From Rhodospirillaceae bacterium (GTDB lineage Bacteria; Pseudomonadota; Alphaproteobacteria; Rhodospirillales; Casp-alpha2), in NCBI GenBank assembly GCA_002686255.1, contig NZAZ01000036.1, positions 1 through 34,960 of the forward strand: DNA of 34,960 nucleotides, given 5' to 3'. The translations under genes and the position numbers were made by a program. Shown here piece after piece: positions 16,630 to 20,091 of this stretch. The notes under the pieces are model-generated. The model ran no database searches. It was not told the DNA's origin and worked only from the letters and a program-made list of their open reading frames with translations. Each line of letters begins with the position of its first letter. Positions within the stretch are counted from its first letter, which is position 1.

Positions 16630-17085
16630 TTATTGTTTTTTCGAATGAACATTTCCCCGGAATTCCTCGAGCCGGGATTTGACCGCCGCCGGCAGCCTGG
16701 CCGGCCGGCCGTCAAGGGACATGCAGGCGAGTTTCAGTTCCATGCGCACCAGTTCGGCGTTGTCCTGCTTTACCCGTTGATCGGCGACCAACGAGGCGCC
16801 GTCGACGTCGATTAAACGGGTTTCGACCGACAGCAGGTCGTCGAGCCTGGCCGGTTTGAAAAAATCCACCTCACACCGCCGGACGGCGAAGGCCAGCCCT
16901 TCGGTTTCCATCAACCGGGCGTTTTCGGTGCCGAGGTCGCGAAGCATCTCGGTGCGCGCCCGTTCGGCGTATTTCAGATAGTTGGCGTAATAGACGATGC
17001 CGGCGGCATCCGTGTCCTCGTAATAGACGCGGACCGGATATACGTGGATTCCCTCCGGGGAGGCACCTGAGGTGGGCTTATTCAT
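16630..17085 (-). CDS. ybgC: Tol-Pal associated acyl-CoA thioesterase YbgC
   Basis: This is a hot-dog-fold 4HBT-type thioesterase, acting on acyl-CoA or acyl-ACP. The 151-residue product has [29 protein letters not shown], in which the Asp of the EDTDxxGxVYY motif is catalytic. [19 protein letters not shown] follows. ybgC leads the tol operon in most proteobacteria, and its C-terminus precedes tolQ here. Its first 8 bases overlap the end of ruvB, linking the repair and envelope genes into one unit. Confidence 0.94.
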
Positions 17086-18148
17086 CGTCCTCGATTCCGC
17101 CGATCAACTCCAGTTGGGCGATGCCTTCCGGTTCCGCCAAGCCCAAATGCCTAAACGCTTCCGTCCCCAAGGCCCGGCCGCGGGGCGTGCGCATCAAAAA
17201 CCCCTGCTGAATGAGGTAGGGTTCGATCACCTCCTCGATGGTATCTCGTTCCTCGGAAAGGGCGGCCACCAGCGTCTCGACGCCAACCGGGCCGCCACCG
17301 AACTTTTCGGCGATGCAACCGAGATACCGCCGATCCATGGCATCCAGGCCGCGCCCGTCCACCTCCAGCCGGTTGAGCGCCTGATCGGCGACCTTGGCGT
17401 CGACCTTGCCGTCGCCGTCCAGGTCGGCGAAGTCACGGACCCTTCTCAGCAAACGCCCGGCGACCCGGGGCGTTCCCCTGGACCGGCGGGCAATTTCCTG
17501 GGCCCCGTCGGCCGTCAGGTCCATGTTCAGCAACCCGGCGCCGCGGACGACGATCTGCTCCAGTTCCTGGTCCGAATAGAACGACACCCGCAGGGGAATG
17601 CCGAACCGTTCGCGCAAGGGCGACGTAATCAGGCCCGAGCGCGTCGTCGCCCCGACCAGGGTGAACGGCGGCAGGTCGATGCGCACCGAGCGCGCCGCCG
17701 GTCCTTCGCCAATGATCAGGTCGAGCTTAAAATCCTCCATCGCCGGATAGAGGATTTCCTCGACCACCGGGTTAAGGCGGTGGATTTCATCGATGAACAA
17801 TATTTCCCGGGGCTGCAGGTTGGTGAGGATGGCCGCCAGGTCGCCGGCCTTGGCGATCACCGGCCCCGACGTGGCGCGAAAGCCGACCCCGAGCTCATGG
17901 GCGACGATCTGCGCCAGGGTCGTTTTGCCGAGCCCGGGCGGCCCGTGAAAAAGCACATGGTCCATGGCTTCGCCGCGCTTGGCGGCGGCGGCGACGAAGA
18001 CCGACAGGTTCCCGCATATCTGTTCCTGACCGATGAAATCGTCGAGCCGTTGCGGGCGCAGCCCGGTTCCGGCCCCGTCTTCCAATTTATCTTCCAATTT
18101 GTCCTCGACCGCCTCGGCGGCCGCGACCATGCGGTTGCCGTCACTCAT
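17078..18148 (-). CDS. ruvB: Holliday junction branch migration ATPase RuvB
   Basis: RuvB is the hexameric motor that drives RuvA-bound Holliday junctions. The 356-residue product has [11 protein letters not shown], Walker [10 protein letters not shown] (69-77), Walker [10 protein letters not shown], sensor motifs [18 protein letters not shown] and the winged-helix C-terminal domain ending with [17 protein letters not shown]. The N-terminus carries a short duplication: a 12-bp tandem repeat at 18079-18102 gives DKLEDKLE, lengthening the non-conserved leader. Its ATG directly abuts the ruvA stop. Confidence 0.97.
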
Positions 18149-18778
18149 TTAAACGCTCCCTCTGGCATCGACGGGGGCCAGTTCGCTTAGGCCGCCCCGG
18201 ATCAGGGCCTCGACATCGGCGCCCTCGCCGAGCCGGCCGGCGGCGCGGCTGACGGCGCTCAAGGCCTGGAACGGCTGGTAGCCGAGATTGACCAGGGCCG
18301 ATGCGGCGTCGGATACCGCCCCTCCTACCCCTTCTATCCCGGCCGCCGGTTGACCGCCCGCCGCCACGGCGAGGGCAACGGTTCCGACCTTGTCCTTCAA
18401 TTCGCTGAGGATACGGGTCGCCAGCTTCGGGCCGACGCCGGGGGCCTGGGTAATGGCCGCCTTGTCGGCGGCGGCAATGGCTTGCACCAGTTCGTCCGGC
18501 GACAACACCGTCAACAGGCCGAGCGTCACCCTGGCGCCTACGCCTTGGACGGTTGTCAGAAGACGGAACCAGTCGCGTTCGACGGCATCGATGAAGCCAT
18601 AGAGGTGGATGTGGTCCTCGCGGACATGGGTTTCGACCATGACCTCCGCCCCCTCGCCGACGCCGAGGCGGCCCAGCGTGCGGCCGGAACAGAACACCAG
18701 ATACCCGACGCCGCCGACGTCGATGACGGCCCAGTCCTCGCCAAGGCTGTCGATCAGGCCCTTGAGCTTGGCGATCAT
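18149..18778 (-). CDS. ruvA: Holliday junction binding protein RuvA
   Basis: RuvA tetramers hold the four-way junction open for RuvB. The 209-residue product begins with [20 protein letters not shown] (OB-fold domain I) and has the helix-hairpin-helix region [13 protein letters not shown] and [16 protein letters not shown]. It ends with a domain III helix region ([22 protein letters not shown]) that contacts RuvB. Its start overlaps the ruvC stop by four bases (ATGA) and its stop touches ruvB. Confidence 0.96.
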
Positions 18779-19290
18779 GGCGCCGCCTCCGCCGCCAGCG
18801 CCAGGGAAGCCGCCGCCTGGGGGCTTGAGCGGTGATGGGCATGGCAGATGGCGACCGCCAGCGCGTCGGCCGCGTCGGCGGTCTTGATCGTCGATCCGGG
18901 CAATAGAGTCTTGACCATCATATGTACCTGTTGCTTGGCCGCGTGCCCGGCGCCGACGACCGTTTTCTTGATCAGGTTGGGCGAATATTCGGCGACGCGG
19001 AGCCCGGCGCTTGCCGGCACCACAAGCGCAATCGCCCGGGCCTGGCCCAGTTTCAGCGTCGAGGCGGCGTTCTTGTTGACGAAGGTCTCCTCGACCGCGG
19101 CCTCAAGGGGACGGAACCGTTCGATGATTTCCGTCAGGCCGGTCTGCAACTGCACCAGCCGGTCCGCCAACGGCAATCTCGAATCCGTCCTGATGACGCC
19201 GTCGGCGACATGGCCGAGGCGGTTGCCGCTGGCCTTGATCACGCCCCAGCCGGTATGGCGGAGCCCCGGGTCAATGCCGATCAGTCGAAT
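18775..19290 (-). CDS. ruvC: Crossover junction endodeoxyribonuclease RuvC, apparent ATT start
   Basis: RuvC resolves Holliday junctions. Reading from ATT 19290 gives (M)[19 protein letters not shown]. The catalytic Asp is at residue 7, as in the well-studied enzyme. Later acidic residues are in VEETFVN (middle Glu) and [14 protein letters not shown] (the two C-terminal Asp). The total of 171 residues is a normal length. In this frame the previous stop is the yebC TAG (19342-19344). None of the 17 codons between it and ATT is ATG, GTG or TTG. The first such codon is a GTG at the 17th position, which would delete the active site. A perfect AGGAGG (19296-19301) lies five bases before the ATT. 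A CTG two codons later is the other candidate start. Confidence 0.92.
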
Positions 19291-19341
19291 GGTGTCCTCC
19301 TGTTCATGGTCATGGAATCCCTCGGGGGTCCATTGGTTTTC

Positions 19342-20091
19342 CTAGGCGCTCAACCGTTCGAGCACGTCCTCGGCGACATCGAAGTTAGCCGCCACCCGCT
19401 GCACGTCGTCGTTGTCGTCAAGGGCGTCGAGAAGATTCAACAGCGTGCCGGCGGTGTCTTCGTCGACGGCAACGGCGTTTTGGGGCTTCCAGTCCAGCCT
19501 GGCGTTCTCGGCGTTTCCGAACCTGGCCTCCAGGGCATCCCGGACAGCGGAAAAATCGTCCGGCCCGCACGTCACCTCATAGCCGGCGCCGGAGGACTCG
19601 ACATCCGAGGCGCCGGCTTCCAGGGCCGCCTCGAACATGTCGTCGGCGCTGGCCGCATCAGCGCCGTAAACGATCAGGCCGACGCGCTCGAACATGAAGC
19701 TGACGGAACCGCTTTCGCCCAGGGTGCCGCCGTATTTGGTGAACGCGGCGCGGAGATCGCTTGCCGTGCGGTTGCGGTTGTCGGTCAACGCCTCGACGAT
19801 CACGGCGACGCCCCCGGGGCCGTATCCCTCGTAACGGATTTCCTCGTAGTGGGTGTCGTCATCGCCGCCGCTGGCTTTCTTGATCGCCCGGTTCATGGTG
19901 TCGGATGGCATGTTGGCGGCCCTGGCCGCGGCGATGGCGGTGCGAAGCCGGGGGTTCATGTCCGGGTCGGGCAAGCCCGCCCTGGCGGCGACGGTCAATT
20001 CCCTGATCAACTTCGAGAAAACCTTTCCCCGCTTGGCGTCCTGGCGGCCCTTGCGGTGCATGATGTTCTTGAATTTTGAATGACCGGCCAT
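19342..20091 (-). CDS. yebC: YebC/PmpR family protein
   Basis: The 249-residue product begins [20 protein letters not shown], the hallmark of the YebC/TACO1 family. It carries [22 protein letters not shown] and the central [15 protein letters not shown]. Members were described as transcriptional regulators (PmpR) and more recently as ribosome-associated factors that help translate proline stretches. That second role would fit the Pro-rich TolA and OmpA-like proteins in this window, but this is inference. It is in the same frame as ruvC and its stop lies 51 bases before the ruvC ATT start. yebC-ruvC order is widely conserved. Confidence 0.96.

Follow-up and report, generated by a model that had tools for sequence, protein, structure and literature searches.

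A putative, conserved AUU start codon behind a strong Shine-Dalgarno sequence in ruvC of a small group of uncultured Alphaproteobacteria

Translation of ruvC in a 34,960-nucleotide stretch of DNA from a Rhodospirillaceae bacterium (GenBank assembly GCA_002686255.1, contig NZAZ01000036.1, positions 1 to 34,960; hereafter the window) very probably starts at an AUU codon (19290-19288, minus strand), and comparison with relatives indicates that this start is both real and conserved. On this evidence ruvC would be a new gene in the known class of rare-start genes, within a small group of uncultured Alphaproteobacteria. The favoured explanation, in which good confidence is placed, is that the AUU start is rescued by a strong Shine-Dalgarno (SD) sequence, giving low RuvC output that would be sensitive to initiation factor IF3. 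Few AUU starts are well documented, and ruvC would add a conserved case in a core recombination gene. A literature search, with subscription journals mostly outside its coverage, found no account of a rare ruvC start.

Start region and product of ruvC

In the ruvC frame, the TAG of yebC (19344-19342, minus strand) is followed by 17 codons containing no ATG, GTG or TTG and then by ATT at 19290-19288, while the hexamer AGGAGG (19301-19296) is separated from this ATT by a spacer of five bases, ACACC. These observations had been made in a first-pass annotation of the same DNA and were confirmed, as was, from the codon positions, its statement that the first conventional in-frame start, GTG 19242-19240 at codon 17, would cost the product Asp 7, the codon for which (19272-19270) lies upstream of that GTG. 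Gene finders restricted to ATG, GTG or TTG would begin ruvC at this GTG and so drop Asp 7, and the list of open reading frames does open the gene there (18775..19242). The relevant features are given below, loci being termed ATT-only when no ATG, GTG or TTG follows the upstream stop before the homologous start codon is reached.

19342..20091, minus strand: yebC (PF01709 and PF20772), its stop 51 bases ahead of the ruvC ATT.
19281..19313, minus strand: short out-of-frame ATG frame across the ruvC start, ten protein letters with a TGA end, seen in six of the eight ATT-only loci and in 13 of the 28 other loci from the family.
19296..19301, minus strand: AGGAGG, putative SD sequence of ruvC, spacer 5; found at this spacing in 8/8 ATT-only loci, the hexamer also occurring within 20 bases of the start in 2/103 others.
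19288..19290, minus strand: ATT, the proposed ruvC start codon, with no ATG, GTG or TTG back to the upstream stop; present in 8/8 ATT-only loci and 11/11 clade loci.
19282..19284, minus strand: CTG, codon 3, a rival start at spacing 11; CTG in seven and TTG in one of the eight ATT-only loci.
19240..19242, minus strand: GTG, first conventional in-frame start (codon 17), with Asp 7 lost from the product.
18775..19290, minus strand: ruvC coding sequence, from the proposed ATT to the stop (PF02075, 158.4 bits), matching solved RuvC chains.
18786..18790, minus strand: GGAGG, likely the own SD sequence of ruvA, spacer 7, as judged from sequence; not uniform across the clade.
18149..18778, minus strand: ruvA (PF01330, PF14520 and PF07499), its ATG start overlapping the ruvC stop (ATGA).
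17078..18148, minus strand: ruvB, ATG start (PF05496, PF17864 and PF05491).

The genes thus stand in the order yebC, ruvC, ruvA, ruvB, all on the minus strand. Read from ATT, the window protein is a complete RuvC (PF02075, with the score given above), the N-terminus of which lines up with those of solved RuvC chains, chain 7w8d aligning from residue 2 with zero offset. Asp 7, the Glu of AVEE and the two Asp of DAAD, presumably the catalytic acidic residues of the enzyme, are present in all 11 RuvC sequences from the clade described in the next section. Values of dN/dS for ruvC were 0.09-0.26 in deep pairs within this clade and 0.21-0.52 among the four closest genomes, for which the counts are small.

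Distribution of the ATT start among relatives

Start regions of ruvC were collected from three sets: the window together with 60 relatives, where 59 of the 61 gave a match; the family, where 45 of 48 did; and the best 80 of 561 named genome contigs. Loci of ruvC were available for part of those genomes, and removal of 14 repeats from the 125 loci entered left 111 that were distinct. Eight of these proved to be ATT-only, namely the window (G000), G008, G001, G002, G009, G020, G007 and G003, and each has the arrangement AGGAGG-N5-ATT. The alignment of starts in relatives proposed by the first-pass annotation consequently bore out its reading of the start site, the same codon and spacing being found in the window and seven relatives. 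All eight loci fall within one clade consisting of the window's genus plus a single sister-genus genome (G020), with support of 0.995 for the clade and 0.752 for the genus itself in a tree built from YebC, RuvC and RuvA; they were accordingly treated as one lineage and not as independent events. AGGAGG was found within 20 bases of the start in ten of the 111 loci, comprising the eight ATT-only loci and two with a TTG start, and in none of the 63 with ATG, an association with the ATT-only state (Fisher, 1e-10) that is inflated by shared ancestry.

Conventional starts in relatives, which the first-pass annotation had named as evidence that would count against an ATT start, are indeed the rule in the rest of the family, where the homologous codon was ATG, GTG or TTG in 28 of the 28 other genomes examined (34 had a match). 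Since the conventional start occupies the same codon in these genomes, AUU appears to have replaced it, and the comparison points to a replacement retained together with a strong SD sequence.

The situation was ambiguous in the three remaining clade members, G004, G005 and G006, which keep ATT, have no AGGAGG, and carry an in-frame ATG upstream by two codons (G004 and G005) or four (G006). Their best SD matches, AAGG in G005, AGGTGAT in G004 and GGAG in G006, are, in the alignment, spaced 5 to 8 bases from ATT and overlap or almost touch the upstream ATG, a geometry suggesting that AUU may be used as the ruvC start in these genomes also. Because G004 and G005 are sisters in the tree, the upstream ATG was likely gained twice within the clade, repeated loss of an old ATG being a less economical account of the same sequences.

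The ATT codon is unchanged in all 11 clade ruvC loci, and the codon just before it varies. Divergence within the clade is considerable, identity at fourfold sites being 52-57% in comparisons of the window with four deep clade members. Among the eight ATT-only genes, only 12 of the 82 codons with an invariant amino acid (Met and Trp excluded) were also invariant as codons, and both of the other invariant Ile codons varied. It is argued from such sequence comparisons that ATT and AGGAGG have been retained through a time long enough for their loss.

Proposed mechanism and the role of IF3

The comparison suggests that AUU took the place of a conventional ruvC start in the ancestor shared by the genus and its sister genus, and that a strong SD sequence was either kept or gained as compensation. 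AGGAGG would then anchor the 30S subunit such that the initiator tRNA could be accepted on AUU despite the third-position mismatch. As AUU pairs with the initiator anticodon at two positions only, IF3 would be expected to destabilise initiation, and RuvC would be made at a fraction of the AUG-started level, rising when free IF3 is scarce. Given an AUU start, reduced and IF3-sensitive output of this kind is likely, both properties being drawn from established work on other genes; the strong SD sequence may restore output, in which event RuvC would not actually be low.

PMC9410913 gives the AUU genes of E. coli as two, infC and pcnB, both of which resemble ruvC here in combining an AUU start behind an SD sequence with limited output. 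E. coli infC differs in that its control is a feedback on IF3 itself, whereas ruvC would be a target without feedback. In Streptomyces, PMC5472188 describes sigR as starting at GTC with AGGAGGTG and as being repressed by IF3, as shown by mutants. That gene shares with ruvC a rare start accompanied by a very strong SD sequence (AGGAGGTG), genus-wide conservation, and a downstream partner with its own ribosome-binding site; it differs in having GTC instead of AUU, in encoding a stress sigma factor, and in that repression by IF3 is proven by mutants there and proposed by analogy for ruvC.

According to PMC13009471, reporters with AUU or AUA starts and an extended SD sequence reached, in S. aureus grown in poor medium, about 10% of the output obtained with AUG. 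The staphylococcal genes cvfC1 (AUU), ccpN and infC (both AUA) are, like ruvC, read from a rare start directed by an extended SD sequence, and for cvfC1 and ccpN both elements are reported there as conserved. These cases differ in that their starts were mapped by ribosome profiling and that they concern other genes in another phylum, the ruvC start being deduced from sequence. In a cell-free system, little full-length product was made when AUU was paired with the CAU anticodon, or with similarly weak pairs, the phenomena measured being internal drop-off and restart (PMC10158994).

Within the clade, infC begins with ATA straight after a stop codon in ten of the ten genomes other than the window's, additional in-frame codons being an ATG five codons on in G020 and a GTG 12 codons on in G001 and G002. 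The IF3 of G002 is full length when read from ATA (178 codons), and the ATT start of E. coli infC was recovered as a control (NC_000913). More widely, ATA or ATC stands at the infC start place in 41 of 41 infC loci (from 40 of 58 genomes with a match); 17 of these loci also have ATG or GTG a little downstream and 13 have no stop within 24 codons upstream, so that other infC starts are possible outside the clade. The window's own assembly gave no match for infC (IF3_N), in contrast to the ten other clade genomes, probably as the result of an assembly gap. Since infC has an AUA start in the clade and IF3 represses rare starts elsewhere, discrimination by IF3 against the ruvC AUU is plausible and can be taken as a fair assumption.

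A physiological link between RuvC and the supply of IF3 is considerably more doubtful. Tentatively, and with a probability well below even, infC (AUA) and ruvC (AUU) might form a small IF3-controlled set in which free IF3 sets the level of the Holliday-junction resolvase relative to that of RuvAB from the same mRNA, an arrangement that might extend to the three clade members in which an ATG lies upstream, since there too the best SD match is in register with ATT. If this were true, free IF3 would act as a readout of ribosome state, tying recombination capacity to translation status; and should control by IF3 prove real, the amount of a junction-cutting nuclease would follow the supply of an initiation factor.

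The first-pass annotation had further proposed that RuvA and RuvB are made freely from the operon while RuvC is restrained. In the window, ruvA has an ATG start and its own GGAGG seven bases upstream, and with a ribosome-binding site of its own the operon could yield less RuvC than RuvAB. Against this, ruvA starts with TTG in two clade members and with GTG in one, and several lack a clear SD sequence; because the GGAGG is not uniform in the clade, the idea of a shifted RuvC:RuvAB stoichiometry is of moderate weight. Translational coupling through the ATGA overlap of ruvC and ruvA in the window could, moreover, lower RuvA too. As a whole, the earlier interpretation was partly supported, its ATT start having been upheld through the relatives, its possible tie to IF3 having gained indirect backing from the AUA start of infC and from the repression of rare starts by IF3 elsewhere, and its free production of RuvA and RuvB having been borne out only in part. 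Across the family sample, ruvA begins with TTG or GTG in L006, L007, L010, L013, L021, L022 and L026-L028, indicating that start-codon strength varies along the operon within the family.

Alternative explanations

One alternative shares its start site with the favoured explanation and disputes only the control: AUU would be used and merely tolerated, having arisen by drift, with the strong SD sequence restoring output and the level of IF3 playing no physiological part. This account was given an appreciable probability, somewhat short of even. It fits the fact that the strong SD sequence is exactly in register in all eight ATT-only loci, in agreement with the compensation between start codon and SD sequence described in PMC5622118, and no second convincing AUU gene with AGGAGG was found in the genome. 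However, a change from ATT to ATG requires a single base, and is absent in 11 of 11 clade members despite their deep divergence; PMC5622118, moreover, records the change from AUG to AUU for just one of 61,358 ancestral AUG starts.

Initiation might alternatively occur at codon 3 (CTG 19284-19282), giving a product beginning MIGIDPG in which Asp 7 is retained, a possibility regarded as quite improbable. The codon is CTG in seven ATT-only loci and TTG, a conventional start codon, in the eighth (G009). The spacer from AGGAGG would, however, be 11 bases instead of five, CTG is itself a rare start, and relatives in which ATG stands two codons earlier commonly have CTG or TTG at the same Leu codon. 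Starting there would also shorten the first strand of the protein, and would leave both the fixed ATT and its five-base spacing unexplained.

A similarly small probability attaches to the suggestion that ruvC is fed by a short +1 frame (ATG ACC ATG AAC AGG AGG ... TGA), either through restart at AUU after the TGA or through a frameshift. The frame is present in six of the eight ATT-only loci (G000, G008, G001, G002, G007 and G003; L002-L005, L011 and L012), always with the same TGA just inside ruvC, and is missing in all three clade members with an in-frame ATG. Against it, the frame is missing in G009 and G020, and its presence in 13 of 28 family loci with conventional starts indicates that it is not tied to ATT. 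The encoded peptide is unconserved save for the Arg-Arg encoded by the SD sequence and the part overlapping ruvC, while only a -1 shift would lead into the ruvC frame, and no slippery sequence for one was seen by eye. The restart version would still use AUU, and restart from the short overlapping frame is a live addition to the mechanism proposed for that codon.

An error of sequencing or assembly at 19288-19290, or a pseudogene that recently lost its start, is extremely improbable: the window's assembly does consist of 167 contigs with 92.95% completeness and 5.6% contamination, but the same codon and SD sequence occur in seven other assemblies, three of them public records with different accession prefixes (L032, JADFNT010000095.1; L034, JACPJY010000242.1; L053, JABMOG010000220.1), and the dN/dS of 0.09-0.26 for deep pairs and the retained acidic residues speak against a pseudogene.

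Genome-wide scan and features near the start

The motif AGGAGG-N4-7-ATT occurs at 50 sites in the window's genome as against 39 for a reversed control, the bare motif thus being ordinary. Such sites were examined in 30 loci and 17 stretches, with 52 placements in all, some counted twice where loci overlap, and six placements begin a frame of 40 codons or more that lacks an upstream conventional codon. These six frames are that of ruvC, two in which a conventional codon follows at codon 2 or codon 12, and three 73-codon frames that were unconvincing by eye. Among AGGAGG-N4-7-ATT sites, ruvC is therefore the only convincing gene without a conventional start. A general loosening of start choice was rejected on this result, within a survey defined by AGGAGG-N4-7-ATT.

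A conserved hairpin hiding both the SD sequence and the start was likewise considered as a shared control element, and rejected. Within a 21-base element, the pairing CAG-GA-GGA/UUC-GA-CUG forms in G000, G008, G001, G002 and G020, weakly in G003, and in neither G009 nor G007; when more flanking sequence is included, it gives way to another fold in G002, stays weak in G003 and, at the greatest length, is lost in G020.

All 11 clade sequences have CGA at codon 2 of ruvC (window 19285-19287; L002-L012), as against two of 25 other distinct family loci, and CGA accounts for none of the 53 Arg codons at codons 3-150 of the eight ATT-only genes. With CGA, the fold of the 21-base element was less stable than with CGC and no more stable than with CGU in all eight cases, but less stable than with CGG in only four of the eight, and AGA left it as open or more open in eight of eight. 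Keeping the SD sequence open would thus explain the conserved CGA only in part.

With respect to the translational apparatus, the 16S tail AAGGAGGTGATCC was found in two of 12 genomes and in none of the eight genus genomes searched, the anti-SD sequence of the genus being assumed. The E. coli-type initiator stem GGGCTCATAACCC was found in none of ten genomes and a variant stem AGGCTCATAACCT in six of 12, G000 not among them; ARAGORN called tRNA-Met (CAT) in four of the five loci scanned, out of seven, and returned nothing in L218. An altered initiator tRNA was rejected on these stem patterns and ARAGORN tRNA-Met (CAT) calls. The three G-C pairs of the anticodon stem matter for initiator selection. 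In the putative initiator tRNAs of the order (L217-L223), the first of these three pairs is replaced by A-U, AGG/CCT occurring in six of 12 genomes and GGG/CCC in none of ten.

A further rare codon was seen outside the clade, four Azospirillum records (L044, L045, L047 and L049) having GTA at the homologous ruvC start and no conventional codon in frame upstream until a GTG at a distance of 15 codons.
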